The position numbers and the translations under genes are program-made. DNA of 64,000 nt from Algihabitans albus (GTDB taxonomy: Bacteria > Pseudomonadota > Alphaproteobacteria > Kiloniellales > DSM-21159): assembly GCF_003572205.1 (NCBI RefSeq), contig NZ_QXNY01000007.1, forward strand, positions 62,001 through 126,000, read 5' to 3'. The notes below the pieces were generated by a model, which worked only from the letters and a program-made list of their open reading frames with translations, was not told the DNA's origin and ran no database searches. Positions 48,342 to 55,814 of the stretch are shown here, one piece after another. The first letter of the stretch is position 1. Every line of letters starts with the position of its first letter.

Positions 48342-48424
48342 CTAAACGCTTTCGTAAGAGGGAATAACGTAGAAAGTATCTCAAATTTGGTTAGCATTTT
48401 GTGAAGTGCATTGGAGACTCGCCG

Positions 48425-49882
48425 ATGAAGCGCCGGACGTTCTGCCTCGGCATGGGTTTGACGATGGGGTCGCTTTGCGTCCCTCCGGCTGTCCCCGCGA
48501 CCGCCGCAGCGCGCGGCGGAGCAGCGCTGGACAACCTTCACGAGACAGTCGCGCGCGCCGCACGAGACCTGGCGGCGAACCGGAGTCTCCGTCTGGCCGT
48601 TCTCATCCCGCAGGGCAGTCTCGCAAACGTCGCCCCGGTGGCCGAGGCTTTCGGCGCCGCGACCGGGATCGCCGTCGATTTGAAGGAGGAGCCGGTCGAT
48701 ACGATCAGCGCACGGATGGTCGTCGACACGATGTCGGGCGGTGGGACTTGCGATCTGGCGCTGCCCGCGACCTTCAATCTTCCCGATCTCGTGGAAGCCG
48801 GCGCGGTCGTCAATCTCGACGCGTTCGCCGCGAAGTACGAGCCGGCCGGCTTTCGGACCAGCGCGCTCTTCTCCCTCGGCGATCAATACAAGGGCAACCT
48901 CTACGGCTACCAGACCGACGGCGACGCCTACCTCATGTTCTACCATCGCGACTGGCTGGAAGACCCGGACGAGCGGAAGCGCTTCGCCGACCGGCATGGC
49001 TACGAGCTGAAGGTTCCGGAGACCTGGGAAGAACTCGATACCGCGATGGCCTTCTTCCATCGACCGGAGGAGCAGCGCTACGGCGGTGCCCTGTTCAGGG
49101 CGGCGAACTACATCGCCTGGGAATTCTGGATCCGCTTCCATGCGAAGGGCTTCTGGCCCTTCGACGAGGATCTCGAGCCGCAGATCGACAACGCGGCCGG
49201 TGTGGCGGCGCTCGAGGAATTGCTGGCCGCCTCGCGCAGCCTCGCTCCCTCCGTGCGGACCGATACCTTCGATGCGAACTTCAGGACCTTCGAGCGGGGC
49301 AATATCTTCTGCAACATAGGCTGGGGCGGGACCCAGAAGCATCTCAACCGTCCTGACTCGAGAATGAGAGGACGGCTGGCGTTCGGCCCGACGCCCGGCG
49401 GTTACGTCGACGGCCGTCTCCTGACCGTGCCCTACTTCAACTGGGGTTGGAACTACACGGTCTCCAGCGGGTCGCAGACTCCGGAGATCGCCTACCTCTT
49501 CGCGCTCTATGCCAGCAGCCCCGAGATGTCCACGCGTGCCGTGCGCGAACCGGCTGGATATTTCGACCCCTTCCGCTCTGAGCACTACAGGGATCCGCAG
49601 ATCGTCGAAGCCTATTCATCGGAGTTCCTGTTCGTCCATCGCAGAAGCATGGCGCGCAGTATTCCGGACCTCTATCTGAAGGGGCAGGGCGAATACTTCG
49701 ATGCCCTGCGGGAGAATCTCATAAAGGCGGACAGCGGCCTGATCGACGCCCAGGAGGCCCTCACGCGGACGGCGATGCAATGGCGGCAGACGACCCGCCG
49801 CAACGGCCGTCAAAGCCAGATCGAGCAGTGGACCTTCCTACGGTCGCGCTACCCCCAGGATGTCCGCGCACTGCTCCGCTAG
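48425..49882 (+). CDS. Extracellular solute-binding protein, family 1, Tat-type signal
   Basis: This 485-residue protein has a Tat-like leader (MKRRTFCLGMGLTMG, twin Arg) and the family-1 fold: LRLAVLIPQGSLANVAPV near 52, DLALPATFNLPDLVEAGAVV near 104-123, GYQTDGDAYLMFYHRDWLED near 160-179 and WNYTVSSGSQTPEIAYLF near 342-359. The start at 48425 has GGAG ten bases upstream; an ATG at 48401 lacks one. Sugars are typical ligands of this family. There are no permease genes, and the divergent histidine kinase suggests a sensory role. Confidence 0.87.
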   Translation: MKRRTFCLGMGLTMGSLCVPPAVPATAAARGGAALDNLHETVARAARDLAANRSLRLAVLIPQGSLANVAPVAEAFGAATGIAVDLKEEPVDTISARMVVDTMSGGGTCDLALPATFNLPDLVEAGAVVNLDAFAAKYEPAGFRTSALFSLGDQYKGNLYGYQTDGDAYLMFYHRDWLEDPDERKRFADRHGYELKVPETWEELDTAMAFFHRPEEQRYGGALFRAANYIAWEFWIRFHAKGFWPFDEDLEPQIDNAAGVAALEELLAASRSLAPSVRTDTFDANFRTFERGNIFCNIGWGGTQKHLNRPDSRMRGRLAFGPTPGGYVDGRLLTVPYFNWGWNYTVSSGSQTPEIAYLFALYASSPEMSTRAVREPAGYFDPFRSEHYRDPQIVEAYSSEFLFVHRRSMARSIPDLYLKGQGEYFDALRENLIKADSGLIDAQEALTRTAMQWRQTTRRNGRQSQIEQWTFLRSRYPQDVRALLR

Positions 49883-50008: not shown

Positions 50009-51268
50009 ATGTCTCCAGCCAGCGACCCCAATGCCCGATCCCTTGTCCAGGCCGGCTTTTCATCGGATCCTCCGGTGTCGAATCCCGTCGCGCTGCGCGC
50101 TTATCGCCTGGCGCGGCTGCGGGCCGAACTGAGGGCTCGGGACTACGCCGGACTGCTGGTCACCGACCCGATCAACATCCGCTACGCGACCGGTACGAGC
50201 AACATGCAGGTCTGGGCGCTGCACAACGCGGTGCGTTACGCCTTCGTGCCGACCGAGGGGCCGGTGGTGCTGTTCGACTTTCACGGGGGACTGCATCTCT
50301 CGGCCGGGATCGAGACGGTCGCGGAGGTGCGCCCGGCTTTGAGCTGGTTCTACTTCATCGCCGGCGCGCAGGCGCCGGAGCGGGCGGCGCTCTGGGCGCG
50401 GGAGATCGCCGATCTGCTGCGCGCCGAGGGCGGCGGCAACCGGCGGCTTGCGGTCGACAAGTGCGAGCCCCTGGGCGTCGACGCCCTGCGCCGCGAAGGG
50501 GTCGAGATCCGCGATGGGCAGGAGGTCTGCGAGCGGGCGCGCGCGATCAAGTCGCCGGACGAGGTGATCGCCATGCGCCGCTCGGTGGCGGTAGCGGAGG
50601 AAGGCATGGCCAAGATGCAGGCCGTCCTGACGCCGGGCATGACGGAGAACGAACTCTGGTCGCATCTGCATCAGGTCAATATCGCGCGTGGCGGCGAGTG
50701 GATCGAGACCCGGCTGCTGGCCTCCGGCCGGCGCAGCAACCCCTGGTTCCAGGAATGCTCCGACAAGCCCATCGCCGCCGGCGAGCTGGTCAGCTTCGAC
50801 ACCGACTTGATCGGCCCGGACGGGCTCTGCGCCGATATCTCGCGCAGCTTTCTCTGCGGCCAGGTCACGGCGACGGTGGAGCAGAAGCGGCTCTACGGCC
50901 TGGCGCGCGAGCAGATCGAGGCCAACATCGCCTTGCTGCGGCCCGGCTTGCGCTTCGCCGAGCTGGCCGAGCGATCCTGGCGGTTGCCGGAAACCTGCCG
51001 GCCCAACCGCTATTCCGTGATCGCCCATGGCGTCGGTCTCTGCGACGAGTACCCCCACTGCGGCTACGTCGAGGACAACGACCGGGGCGGCGGCTACGAC
51101 GGCGTCTTCTCGGCCGGCATGACGATCTGCATGGAAAGCTATATCGGCGAAGAGGGCGGTGACGAGGGGGTCAAGCTGGAAGAGCAACTGCTGATCACCG
51201 AGACGGGCGTCGAGCGCCTCTCGCGTTTTCCCTACGAGGAGGTCTTGATGCCGAGCCGCTGGCTTTAG
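50009..51268 (+). CDS. M24-family metalloenzyme closely resembling DMSP lyase DddP
   Basis: This 419-residue protein has the pita-bread fold with all metal-ligand positions: FDTDLIG (Asp264, Asp266), ADISRSF (Asp276), AHGVGLCDE (His340), CMESYIG (Glu376) and KLEEQ (Glu391). As I recall DddP, features shared with it include RDYAGLLVTDPINIRYATGT, NMQVWALHN, GGEWIETRLLASGRRSNPWF with QEC, and Asp346 in HGVGLCDE, the position of the catalytic Asp for DMSP cleavage to acrylate and DMS. Non-DddP M24 relatives can share several of these, so activity is only likely. It is followed by a phosphatase and a DMT exporter on the same strand. Confidence 0.75.
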   Translation: MSPASDPNARSLVQAGFSSDPPVSNPVALRAYRLARLRAELRARDYAGLLVTDPINIRYATGTSNMQVWALHNAVRYAFVPTEGPVVLFDFHGGLHLSAGIETVAEVRPALSWFYFIAGAQAPERAALWAREIADLLRAEGGGNRRLAVDKCEPLGVDALRREGVEIRDGQEVCERARAIKSPDEVIAMRRSVAVAEEGMAKMQAVLTPGMTENELWSHLHQVNIARGGEWIETRLLASGRRSNPWFQECSDKPIAAGELVSFDTDLIGPDGLCADISRSFLCGQVTATVEQKRLYGLAREQIEANIALLRPGLRFAELAERSWRLPETCRPNRYSVIAHGVGLCDEYPHCGYVEDNDRGGGYDGVFSAGMTICMESYIGEEGGDEGVKLEEQLLITETGVERLSRFPYEEVLMPSRWL

Positions 51269-51364
51269 GGTTAGTCCGCCGCCCGACTTGAATCTCGCCT
51301 TGGAAATTCCGGTGTAAAACAGGGACTTGCCTTCGCGGGCCGCTTGGCGTCTTTTCGCGCCGGT

Positions 51365-52015
51365 ATGAACGACCGACCCTCCAGCCCCTCCGAGTCTTCC
51401 CCGCGCACGGCATGGCTGCGCCGGCTTGGCGGCTGGACCGTCGCGCGTCTGTCCAACCTGCATTGGGTCGATGAACGGCTGGCGCGCTCGGCCCAGCTCT
51501 ACGGCCGCCATACGGCGCTGATCCTGGAGCTCTACGGCTTCCGCACGGTGATAAATCTGCGCGGCGAGAACCCGGAGGCCGGCTGGTACAGCGCCGAGGC
51601 CGAAGCCTGCCGGGCCCTCGGCGTGGTCTTTCTCGACGTGCCGATCAACTCGCGCCGAATTCCCAGGCGCGCCGAGCTTCAAGCCCTGCTGCAGGCCTTC
51701 GACGCGCTGGAGGCGCCGGCGCTGATCAAGTGCGCGGGCGGTGCCGACCGCACCGGTCTGGCCTGCTTCCTCTACCTGATCGACCGCGAGGGGCCGGAGC
51801 GCTTCGCGGCGGCCCAACGGCACCTGACGGCCTGGCCCTACCTGCATATCCCCAAGCTGCAGCAACGCTGGCTAAGACTGTTCCTGGTCTACTGGCAAAG
51901 CCATCGCGGCCCCGAGATGCCGCTACGCCGCTGGCTGGACGAGATCTACGACCCGCAGGACTTCGCGGACTGGCTGAACGCACAGGGCAAGCGCGGGACC
52001 TATCGGAATGTGTAG
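51365..52015 (+). CDS. Dual-specificity/tyrosine phosphatase-like protein
   Basis: This protein of about 216 residues has the phosphatase P-loop KCAGGADRTGLACF near 121-134 (C-x5-R-T) preceded by FRTVINLRGENPEAGWY near 58-74, as in prokaryotic DSP proteins related to DUF442 and Siw14-like inositol-pyrophosphate phosphatases. The usual His before the Cys is replaced by Lys. A TTG at 51344 could extend it by seven residues. It is followed by an EamA transporter 50 bp downstream. Confidence 0.83.
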   Translation: MNDRPSSPSESSPRTAWLRRLGGWTVARLSNLHWVDERLARSAQLYGRHTALILELYGFRTVINLRGENPEAGWYSAEAEACRALGVVFLDVPINSRRIPRRAELQALLQAFDALEAPALIKCAGGADRTGLACFLYLIDREGPERFAAAQRHLTAWPYLHIPKLQQRWLRLFLVYWQSHRGPEMPLRRWLDEIYDPQDFADWLNAQGKRGTYRNV

Positions 52016-52065
52016 GGAAGGTCGTTCGAGATGGACCTCCGCCCGGCCGAGGACAGGCTGAGGCC

Positions 52066-52974
52066 ATGGAGGCCTGGATCTTCTGGACCCTGGGCGGGGC
52101 CTTCTTCCAAAACCTGCGCTCGGCGCTGCAGAAGCGGCTGAAGGACGACCTGGGCACCCAGGGCTCCGCCTTCGCGCGCTTCGTCTACGCCTTTCCCCTG
52201 GCCTTGGTCTATCTGCTGGCGACGGCCGAGGTGGGGGGCGTCGCCCTGCCGGCAATTCACGGGACCTTTCTGGCCTACGCCGTCCTGGGCGCCGCCGCGC
52301 AGATCTTCGCCACCGTCTGTCTGATCGAAGCCTTCGGCCATCGCAACTTCGCGGTGGCTACGGCTTATTCCAAGACGGACACGGTGCAGGCGGCCGTCTT
52401 CGGACTGATCCTGCTCGGCGACGCGCTGAGCCCCCTGGCGGGACTGGGGATCGTCATCTCGCTGGCCGGCGTTATCGCCATCTCCCTGAAGCGCCAGCAG
52501 GCGGGCTGGGGTCAGCTGCTCACCGGCTGGCTGCAGCCGGCGGCGCGGCTGGGCATCGCCTCGGGCGCCGGCTTCGCGCTCTCGTCGGTCTGCTACCGCG
52601 CGGCAAGCCTGTCGCTGGAGCCGGTCGGCGCTCCGGTACAGGCGGCCACGACCCTGGCCTGGGTGCTGGGGCTGCAGACGCTGGCCATGGGCGCCTGGCT
52701 GGCCTGGCGCCGGCCGGCGCAGCTCCGGGCCGTCTTCGCGAGTTGGCGGGTCTCGGCCTGGGTGGGGGCGGCGGGCATGGCCGCCTCGGTCGGCTGGTTC
52801 ACCGCCATGACCCTAGAGAACGCCGCTCACGTGCGCGCGTTGGGGCAGGTCGAGCTGGTCTTCAGCCTGGCCGCGTCTTGTCTGTTCTTCAAGGAACGCT
52901 CGACAGCCGTCGAGCTGCTGGGCATCGCCGCCGTAGTCGGTGGAATCGTCATTCTGCTGCTGGGAACAGGGTGA
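52066..52974 (+). CDS. DMT-superfamily (EamA-like) exporter
   Basis: This 302-residue membrane protein has ten predicted helices in two EamA-type repeats, for example GTFLAYAVLGAAAQIFATVC with ATAYSKTDTVQAAVFGLILL, and a last pair ALGQVELVFSLAASCLFFKE and LGIAAVVGGIVILLLGTG. The motif ALGQVELVFSL is a common second-repeat feature. It could export amino acids, metabolites or drugs; the substrate is unknown. An upstream extension in the same frame is an antisense-like artefact. Confidence 0.88.
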   Translation: MEAWIFWTLGGAFFQNLRSALQKRLKDDLGTQGSAFARFVYAFPLALVYLLATAEVGGVALPAIHGTFLAYAVLGAAAQIFATVCLIEAFGHRNFAVATAYSKTDTVQAAVFGLILLGDALSPLAGLGIVISLAGVIAISLKRQQAGWGQLLTGWLQPAARLGIASGAGFALSSVCYRAASLSLEPVGAPVQAATTLAWVLGLQTLAMGAWLAWRRPAQLRAVFASWRVSAWVGAAGMAASVGWFTAMTLENAAHVRALGQVELVFSLAASCLFFKERSTAVELLGIAAVVGGIVILLLGTG

Positions 52975-53099: not shown

Positions 53100-53837
53100 A
53101 TGCGACCTCTGACCATCGGATTCATCGTTGCCGTTGCCGTGGCCGCCGGTATCGCGCTGGCGGTGCAGGAGTGGAGCCCCGGCAGCGGCTGCTCCAGAGA
53201 GCCCGCGCCGGGCGTGGATTGGAGCGGCTGCAACCGCCAGGCCCTCGACCTGAGGAACGAAGGCCTGGGCGGGATGATCTTCGCCGAGGCGGATATCGCC
53301 CGCTCCGCCTTGGCGGGTGCCGATCTGCGCGCGGCCGACTTCACCCGCGCGCGGGTGGACCGCGTCGTCTTCGACGGCGCGGACCTGCGCGAAGCCCTGT
53401 TCGACCGGGCCGAGGGACCGCGGGCCAGCTTCCGAAACGCCGATCTCTCCGGGGCCAATCTCGGCAAGGCGATCTTGCCGCGCGGCGACTTCGCCGGCGC
53501 CGTTCTGGCGCGTGCCCAGCTTGCCAAGGCGGATCTGCAGCGCAGCGATCTGCAGCAGGCGAACCTGGAAGGCGCCGATCTGAGCGAGACGATGCTGGCG
53601 CGCGCGGATCTGCGAGACGCGCGACTGGCGGGGACCGTCCTGGCCCGCGCCTACCTGATGATGGCAGACCTGCGCGGCCTCGACCTCTCCGCCGCCGAGG
53701 GGCTGACGACGACGCAGCTCGCCGAGGCCTGCGGCGATGCCGAGACCCGGCTGCCGGCCGGTGTCGAACGGCCGGATACCTGGCCCTGCCCCGCCCTGGA
53801 GCCGGCGACCGCCGGATCCAGGGAGGGCGAGGACTGA
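53100..53837 (+). CDS. Pentapeptide-repeat protein with N-terminal membrane anchor
   Basis: This 245-residue protein has one N-terminal hydrophobic helix (IGFIVAVAVAAGIALAV) followed by about 28 tandem A(D/N)LxX-type repeats between residues 45 and 205 (ALAGADLRAADFTRARV, NADLSGANLGKAIL). Such repeats form a right-handed quadrilateral beta-helix. Some family members protect DNA gyrase, but this one is extracytoplasmic by prediction and its role is unknown. It lies alone between the exporter and a convergent periplasmic DsrE-like gene. Confidence 0.9.
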   Translation: MRPLTIGFIVAVAVAAGIALAVQEWSPGSGCSREPAPGVDWSGCNRQALDLRNEGLGGMIFAEADIARSALAGADLRAADFTRARVDRVVFDGADLREALFDRAEGPRASFRNADLSGANLGKAILPRGDFAGAVLARAQLAKADLQRSDLQQANLEGADLSETMLARADLRDARLAGTVLARAYLMMADLRGLDLSAAEGLTTTQLAEACGDAETRLPAGVERPDTWPCPALEPATAGSREGED

Positions 53838-54563: not shown

Positions 54564-55814
54564 GTGTCCGTCGCTTCGCGTACCAACCTCTCCGTCAACG
54601 GCCCGCGCTTCTGGGAGACCATCGAGACATCGGCCGGGATCGGCACCGGGCCTGAGGGCGGGCTGCGCCGTTTGGCGCTGGGCGATGCCGACCGGGCGAT
54701 GCGCGACCGCTTCGCCGCCTGGTGCGGGGCGGCCGGCTACGGCGTCACGGTCGACCGGCTGGGCAACCTCTTCGCCCGCCGGGCCGGGGCGGACGATAGC
54801 CTGCCGCCGGTGGTGATCGGCAGCCACCTGGACACCCAGGCGGCCGGCGGGCGCTTCGACGGAATCGTCGGGGTGCTAGGCGGGCTGGAGGTGCTGCGCA
54901 GCCTGGACGATCTGGAGATGGAAACGCGCCGTCCGGTCGAGGTGGTCAACTGGACCAATGAGGAGGGCGCGCGCTTCACGCCGCCGATGCTGTCCTCCGC
55001 CGTCTTCGCCGGTCTGCGAGATCTGGATTGGGCGCTGGCGCGGGAAGACGACACCGGCGTCACCGTCGGTGCCGAGCTGGAGCGGATCGGCTATGCCGGC
55101 CCGGCGCCGGTCGGCGGGCGCGCGCTGGACAGCTACTTCGAGATCCATATCGAGCAGGGGCCGCGGCTGGAGGCCGAGGGCTTCCAGGTCGGGCTGGTCA
55201 CCGGCGCCTACGTGGCACGCGGCATGATCCTGAAGATCGACGGCGAGAACGCCCATTCCGGCCCGACCGCCATGAACCTGCGCCAGAACGCGATCGTGGG
55301 CGCGGCCATGCTGGCGGTGGCGGTCAACGAGGTCGGCTGGCGCTATTCCTGGTGCGACGGTAAATCTACCGTGGCGCGTCTGGAGGCCTGGCCGAACAAG
55401 CCGGGCATCCTGTCCGACGAGGCCAAGCTGTTCGTCGACTTCCGCAGCCCCGACGCCGAGACCACGGCCAAGATGGAGGCGGAAATCCGGGCGGCCCTGC
55501 CCGACGCCGCGCGGCGCAGCCAGTGCCGCATCGAGGTGGCGGAGGACTGGACCTTCGGCGACCTGGCTTTCGACTCCGGGCTGCTGGACCTGGTCCGCAG
55601 CACCGCCGGACGCCTCGAGGTCCCGCTGCTGGAACTGCCGAGCCAAGCGGGCCACGACGCCTACAATCTGTCCAAGCTCTGTCCGACGGTGTTGATCTTC
55701 ACGCCCTGCGCGGGCGGTATTACGCACAACGAAAAGGAAGACACCACGCTGGAAGATCAACTTCCCGGCTTGAACGTTCTGCTCAATGCCGTGGTCGAAC
55801 GGGCGATGCTCTAG
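54564..55814 (+). CDS. M20-family amidohydrolase (N-carbamoyl-L-amino acid hydrolase / allantoate amidohydrolase type)
   Basis: This 416-residue dizinc enzyme (GTG start, GGAGG nine bases upstream) has VVIGSHLDTQAAGGRFDGIVGVL (read in parts: the SHLDT His and RFDG Asp), WTNEEGARFTPPML near 132-145 (Glu pair), HIEQGPRLEAEG near 195-206 and GHDAYNLSKL near 363-372, then THNEKEDT. It hydrolyses N-carbamoyl or ureido groups in amino acid or purine breakdown. Neighbours do not show which substrate, so only the family is assigned. Confidence 0.92.
   Translation: MSVASRTNLSVNGPRFWETIETSAGIGTGPEGGLRRLALGDADRAMRDRFAAWCGAAGYGVTVDRLGNLFARRAGADDSLPPVVIGSHLDTQAAGGRFDGIVGVLGGLEVLRSLDDLEMETRRPVEVVNWTNEEGARFTPPMLSSAVFAGLRDLDWALAREDDTGVTVGAELERIGYAGPAPVGGRALDSYFEIHIEQGPRLEAEGFQVGLVTGAYVARGMILKIDGENAHSGPTAMNLRQNAIVGAAMLAVAVNEVGWRYSWCDGKSTVARLEAWPNKPGILSDEAKLFVDFRSPDAETTAKMEAEIRAALPDAARRSQCRIEVAEDWTFGDLAFDSGLLDLVRSTAGRLEVPLLELPSQAGHDAYNLSKLCPTVLIFTPCAGGITHNEKEDTTLEDQLPGLNVLLNAVVERAML

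Follow-up and report, generated by a model that had tools for sequence, protein, structure and literature searches.

A DddP-like M24 protein of Algihabitans albus carries the DMSP lyase residues and lies outside the strict DddP branch

Background

DddP enzymes are lyases that release DMS from the marine osmolyte DMSP, and solved structures are available for RlDddP of Ruegeria lacuscaerulensis (4rzy, 4s00, 4s01) and RdDddP of Roseobacter denitrificans (4b28). A review (PMC5395565) assigns the binding of the DMSP sulphur to a conserved Trp, given there without a number, and a Tyr, and the removal of the alpha proton to an Asp. In PMC4108388 the Asp (Asp377 of RlDddP) is proposed as the catalytic base, the role of the Tyr (Tyr366) is discussed, and both residues are described as invariant in DddP. 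The same paper reports a fungal enzyme, FgDddP, which is active in E. coli, is 32% identical to RdDddP and forms one clade with the other verified enzymes. A DddP from a scallop symbiont, likewise reported as active in E. coli, is placed on an independent branch and is 55% identical to DddP2 of O. doudoroffii (PMC10989825). Here we compare with these systems a DddP-like M24 protein encoded in a stretch of 64,000 nucleotides of A. albus (contig NZ_QXNY01000007.1, positions 62,001 to 126,000), which as a whole is called the window.

The M24 gene and its product

The gene under study is the following.

50009..51268, + strand: DddP-like M24 protein, ATG start, 419 aa; Creatinase_N at residues 33-180, Peptidase_M24 at residues 188-398

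An earlier note, made from the sequence of the window alone, had described this ORF as a DddP-like M24 protein, and it is present as described. The frame is intact and has a coding composition, with a GC content by codon position of 0.68/0.48/0.88 (window GC 66.5%). In phmmer searches the protein matched RdDddP (4b28) with an E-value of 3.5e-99 over query residues 27-414 and RlDddP (4rzy) with 4.8e-95 over query residues 25-414; the next solved matches follow far behind (proline dipeptidases, 2e-14; creatinase and DoeA, about 4e-7 to 6e-7). Over aligned columns it is 43.7% identical to RdDddP (387 columns) and 41.6% to RlDddP. Low identity alone does not exclude activity, since FgDddP has 32% to RdDddP as against 43.7% for the M24 protein. 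Homologues in two other genomes of the genus are 80-84% identical to it.

The predicted fold points in the same direction. An AlphaFold2 monomer model, built from 36 aligned proteins, reached a mean pLDDT of 89.1 and a pTM of 0.88. The four DddP entries rank 1-4 against this model (Foldseek TM-score 0.90), and VIA-align superimposes them with Z 49.0-49.1 and an rmsd of 1.8 over 399-401 residues. The next family, the Xaa-Pro dipeptidases, scores Z 35, and DoeA and creatinase, which have the M24 fold in common with our protein, score Z 33-34.

Active-site residues and their distribution

Aligned with RlDddP, the following codons of the gene specify the residues expected in the active site.

50213..50215, + strand: Trp69, aligned with RlDddP index 95, candidate sulphur-binding Trp
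50798..50806, + strand: metal ligands Asp264 and Asp266, aligned with RlDddP Asp295 and Asp297
50834..50836, + strand: metal ligand Asp276, aligned with RlDddP Asp307
51011..51013, + strand: Tyr335, aligned with RlDddP Tyr366
51026..51028, + strand: metal ligand His340, aligned with RlDddP His371
51044..51046, + strand: Asp346 (in HGVGLCDE), proposed catalytic base, corresponding to RlDddP Asp377
51134..51136, + strand: metal ligand Glu376, aligned with RlDddP Glu406
51179..51181, + strand: metal ligand Glu391, aligned with RlDddP Glu421

In an alignment of 122 rows the M24 protein thus has all nine residues, that is, the six metal ligands, the Asp, the Tyr and the Trp. The six ligands and Asp346 pointed out in the earlier note all align with the RlDddP ligands and D377; beyond these, Y335 (Tyr366) and W69 (RlDddP index 95) are also conserved. 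That the sulphur-binding Trp of the review is the one at RlDddP index 95, and hence W69 in our protein, is what we infer from the alignment. Like RlDddP and RdDddP in fold, in the six ligands and in Asp377, Tyr366 and Trp, the M24 protein differs from RlDddP in that its first metal ligand comes about 30 residues earlier (264 versus 295). Moreover, Glu376 is followed by Ser, whereas Ala stands at this position in 80% of 35 strict DddP rows (defined below).

We started from 157 ORFs with a length of at least 330 aa and a score to the query of at least 80 bits, together with two PDB stretches. Thinning at 88% identity left 115 rows, and seven Oceanimonas rows were then added to reach the alignment of 122. 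Named rows come mostly from a contig scan with the patterns HGVGL[CA]DE and GGEWIETR, of which the best 80 of 553 were kept. The six ligands are found in 121 of the 122 rows, which makes this set unspecific; 110 rows have Asp377 as well, and 109 also the Tyr and Trp, a share that is biased upward because the scan sought HGVGL[CA]DE. Across the larger Asp clade the signature is consistent with lyase chemistry. Being common to many uncharacterised proteins, it can decide neither function nor the choice between DMSP and a related substrate. The step from ligands plus Asp to a DMSP lyase, which was implicit in the earlier note, is therefore weaker than it seemed, although the residues themselves are in place.

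The ligands occur without the Asp in 11 rows, nine with Gly, one with Val and one with Asn. The last of these, L141 (genome G105, ORF 1420-2691), also has Val in place of Tyr366 and forms a long branch inside the 23-row clade of the query. It is a naturally occurring equivalent of D377N, the form seen in the crystal structure 4s01, and lyase activity is probably absent. Three columns separate 79 rows of the Asp clades from eight Gly rows (L168 omitted): H98 (99%) is replaced by R, C305 by Y and D377 by G. This pattern is seen in a second DddP-like protein of the host, L002 (G000:C4:587380-588561), whose gene, judged by eye, follows the ORF of a peptide-type solute-binding protein. Like the M24 protein, this paralogue is an M24 protein with the six ligands and the Tyr; it differs in having Gly for Asp377, Tyr for Trp, Arg for His98 and Tyr for Cys305, and scores 284 bits to the DddP profile. 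Setting 35 strict DddP rows against 19 from the query's clade (without L061, L068, L068b and L141), we found 11 columns that switch at the 80% level. None of these is a ligand or the Asp, Tyr or Trp, and two of them flank W69 and E376.

Family score and tree position

The M24 protein scores 420.7 bits against the DddP equivalog model of NCBIfam (NF043017), below the cut-off of 600; against the DoeA equivalog it reaches 41.6 bits (cut-off 613). A search of 98 relatives with NF043017 gave five with a match above the cut-off and a large group at 387-444 bits, to which our protein belongs. The highest-scoring match came from genome G082; of 31 genomes of its family, 17 have a match above the cut-off, with a maximum of 903 bits.

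The trees were built without reference sequences of the fungal DddPs, HWgs001 and O. doudoroffii; Oceanimonas relatives stand in. In the tree of 115 rows, RlDddP, RdDddP, an Oceanisphaera protein representing Oceanimonas and others form a branch of 33 rows with a support of 100, which we call strict DddP. L014 falls inside this branch although it has 517.9 bits to NF043017, so that the cut-off and the branch do not fully coincide. Next to join the strict branch are 19 rows that form its sister set (from Mesorhizobium, Roseibium, Kiloniella and others), along with four rows that include a Rhodobiaceae protein; together they make a branch of 56 rows with a support of 97. The M24 protein lies outside this branch, in its own clade of 23 rows (support 89) together with proteins of the Kiloniella order. 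The nine Gly rows, L002 among them, are outside the 105-row branch that holds the M24 protein; the direction of the Gly/Asp split is unsure because this tree is rooted on one distant row.

In a more careful tree of 67 rows the M24 protein again stays apart from the branch (support 99/95) that unites strict DddP with the sister set and the Rhodobiaceae-type rows. The deeper branches of this tree are poorly resolved, and where the Gly377 group belongs is uncertain. A topology in which the query's genus was made to group with 17 strict rows was rejected (AU p 0.0046; this group was defined with the first tree already known). Phylogeny had been proposed in the earlier note as a check on the DddP assignment, and its outcome goes against a place in the DddP clade, as does the score below the cut-off. 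By sequence placement and by the curated standard, the M24 protein thus represents a separate branch and is not a strict DddP.

The sister-clade proteins of Mesorhizobium, Roseibium and Kiloniella share the same Asp, Tyr and Trp with the M24 protein and are also below the cut-off (506-524 bits in the five that were scored, Mesorhizobium not being among them). They differ from it in being closer to strict DddP in the tree, and in having methylamine or betaine neighbours in most loci, which are rare in the query's clade.

The scallop-symbiont enzyme offers a further comparison. Its reported residue numbers D263, H339 and E390 (PMC10989825) fit the M24 protein (264, 340 and 391; N-terminus short, 51 residues from H to E) better than RlDddP (295, 371 and 421). 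E385 of the same paper may be a misprint, as it does not fit the spacing of the fold, and only the three residues named were used. In the strict rows the first-ligand Asp has an index of at least 288 (the two PDB stretches aside, and with start codons chosen mechanically); a single strict row, L138, has the same H-to-E spacing of 51. We take the similar numbering as a hint, not as proof, that activity may exist outside the strict branch.

The locus and its counterparts in relatives

Downstream of the M24 gene are two genes in which the earlier note had seen a phosphatase and an exporter, a description borne out by Pfam matches.

51344..52015, + strand: PTP-like phosphatase (PF22784, PF22741, PF04273 and PF13350, each 3-6 bits above cut-off)
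52054..52974 (start approximate), + strand: EamA-family transporter (PF00892)

The phosphatase gene adjoins the M24 gene in each of the three genomes examined from the genus, and the EamA gene comes next in two of them. Neither was matched in L181 and L182, the two searched stretches from other genera; the link of phosphatase and exporter to the M24 gene is one at genus level only. An operon with the upstream solute-binding protein (48401-49882) was also considered. The 20-kb surroundings of the M24 gene in the other two genomes from the genus contain no match to this protein, which is therefore not counted as a partner. Two more genes of the window occur near the M24 gene in 3/3 genomes examined from the genus: one at 54564-55814 for an M20-type hydrolase whose 467.6 bits exceed the cut-off of 452 for NF006769, an allantoate amidohydrolase subfamily, and one at 53100-53837 for a pentapeptide-repeat protein (PF00805).

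Neighbours were clustered into families, and one representative of each was annotated. Elsewhere in the query's clade the usual setting of the gene is a CnoX/Lon-N/DUF971 string on one side and UbiH, Amt, DapC and FtsK on the other: UbiH was present in 14/20 loci, DUF971 in 13/20 and MTTB in 0/20. There are two further loci of this clade, L068 with an MTTB gene and a dehydrogenase-GcvT gene, and L061 without MTTB. In most of the clade the place is thus a conserved chromosomal site without a pathway partner, and this site, seen in much of the order, has been left by the M24 gene in the query's genus.

The sister clade presents another picture. Of its 40 loci, 35 have MTTB, 34 have a dehydrogenase-GcvT fusion and 27 have BHMT, counts that are not independent since many of the loci are near-identical Mesorhizobium records. 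These loci fall within L063-L122 and come mostly from Mesorhizobium, Aminobacter and Roseibium. The DddP-like gene is accompanied in most of them by MTTB (family PF06253), dehydrogenase-GcvT and BHMT, which may point to an uncharacterised cluster for the degradation of methylated amines or betaines.

Nine strict DddP loci were read. Three of them (L113, L114 and L124) share one gene family directly upstream, whose member in L113 belongs to the acrylyl-CoA reductase family (TIGR02823, 395 bits, cut-off 297; AcuI equivalog, 385 bits, cut-off 440). A fourth of the nine, the Oceanimonas locus L107, contains genes of the BCCT, Rieske GbcA-like, aldehyde-dehydrogenase and reductase types, and a BCCT-family transporter gene is also present in three of four Pseudomonas loci. 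The Oceanimonas-type genome G138 encodes two strict DddPs above the cut-off, 84% identical to each other (L194 and L202), as well as a Pseudomonas-type DddP-like protein (L209). A conjectured identity of L209 with DddP2 of O. doudoroffii was kept out of the argument.

DMSP metabolism genes of the host

The host belongs to the order of Kiloniella and has a genome of 4.68 Mb (99% complete). We found no ddd or acu genes at the M24 locus, in line with the earlier remark that acrylate-handling genes do not lie alongside. Genome-wide the picture is different, because the DMSP demethylase DmdA (620.5 bits, cut-off 410) and the acrylyl-CoA reductase AcuI (448.2 bits, cut-off 440) are encoded elsewhere. 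The two further genomes from the genus encode DmdA as well (600 and 617 bits). AcuI, detected in 55 of 58 relatives of the order (E 1e-60), is nearly universal there and discriminates little as support. The cupin DMSP_lyase family has a sole match in the host, of 26.8 bits (27.3 with neighbours in frame; cut-off 27), covering 67 codons in a frame of 118 aa.

A DddP-type score of at least 365 bits was reached in 12/15 genomes with strong DmdA (at least 500 bits) versus 29/43 without, which gives no clear association (Fisher p 0.51); at the looser, curated DmdA cut-off the numbers were 21/24 versus 20/34 (p 0.022). Both p-values are uncorrected for kinship.

Function of the M24 protein

The fold match of the monomer model, the residue conservation and the DmdA and AcuI genes, next to a borderline cupin match at most, lead us to propose, with about even confidence, that the M24 protein is a metal-dependent lyase of the DddP type which works by beta-elimination, DMSP being its most probable substrate. 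Against this speak the score below the cut-off, the tree position, the same signature in the sister clade, the loss of Asp and Tyr in L141, the lack of ddd or acu genes at the locus, the near-universal AcuI and the absence of a clear link to strong DmdA. Metal content, dimeric state, lyase chemistry and substrate are what we infer from this comparison. The protein would act as a homodimer with a binuclear metal site, like DddP. The substrate carboxylate would be held by the metal pair and the onium head group by Tyr335 and Trp69; Asp346 would then strip the alpha proton and the leaving group on the beta carbon would depart, so that DMSP would yield DMS and acrylate. In this host DMSP would be the likeliest substrate, and the acrylate could be cleared via the AcuI encoded elsewhere.

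The main rival is an enzyme that works in the same way but has another onium or betaine compound as its natural substrate, for example beta-alanine betaine or DMSOP, with DMSP as a side substrate at most. We consider this somewhat unlikely. It draws on the sister clade of strict DddP, where genes for proteins with the same Asp, Tyr and Trp adjoin MTTB, dehydrogenase-GcvT and BHMT, and on L068, a member of the query's own 23-row clade with MTTB and dehydrogenase-GcvT genes. Plasmid-borne relatives adjoin Rieske, betaine ABC, BCCT and sarcosine-oxidase genes, and such relatives are present in Rhizobia and Mesorhizobium; in addition, known DddPs are reported to cleave DMSOP as well (PMC10686828). 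However, MTTB is a neighbour in just one of 22 loci of the query's clade, namely L068, and the host has DmdA. Neighbours of the BCCT and Rieske type do not exclude DMSP, because similar genes also flank the strict DddP of L107. An extension of the same idea, which strikes us as doubtful, is that the whole Asp377-type clade, the M24 protein included, may consist of general onium beta-lyases freeing trimethylamine, dimethyl sulphide or similar compounds from beta-onium propionates, DddP being one specialised branch.

That M24 relatives without lyase activity exist, as the earlier note had cautioned, holds true, and the protein could be a hydrolase of the dipeptidase, creatinase or ectoine-hydrolase type that merely resembles DddP. 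Prolidases, creatinase and DoeA have the M24 fold and a binuclear-type site in common, and most of the solved M24 matches listed are peptidases. Yet DoeA and creatinase reach 32-42 bits, as against 420.7 for DddP, and Z 33-34 as against 49; the M24 protein retains the Asp, while the Gly-type rows such as L002 fall outside its 105-row branch. We regard a hydrolase as quite improbable. Departure of the gene from the order's conserved chromosomal place could indicate a DddP homologue that no longer has a catalytic function or has taken on an unrelated one, but with an intact ORF, complete active residues and 80-84% identity to two members of the genus this seems very unlikely to us.

Implications for dddP-based surveys

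A search by titles and abstract openings, with subscription journals mostly outside its scope, found no published assay of a DddP-like protein from the Kiloniella order. Surveys count dddP genes from Pseudomonas and Mesorhizobium (PMC7039863), and a review assigns ddd genes to Rhizobiales and Pseudomonadales (PMC13360808). The Mesorhizobium proteins and the four Pseudomonas proteins that we examined, which are homologues and not the surveys' own sequences, lie outside the strict branch, as does the M24 protein. If these outer clades make no DMS, gene-based estimates of DMS potential would be too high; if they do, DMSP cleavage would be broader than the curated model allows. Should the reading as onium beta-lyases be true, many "dddP" sequences from sediment and soil would release something other than DMS.
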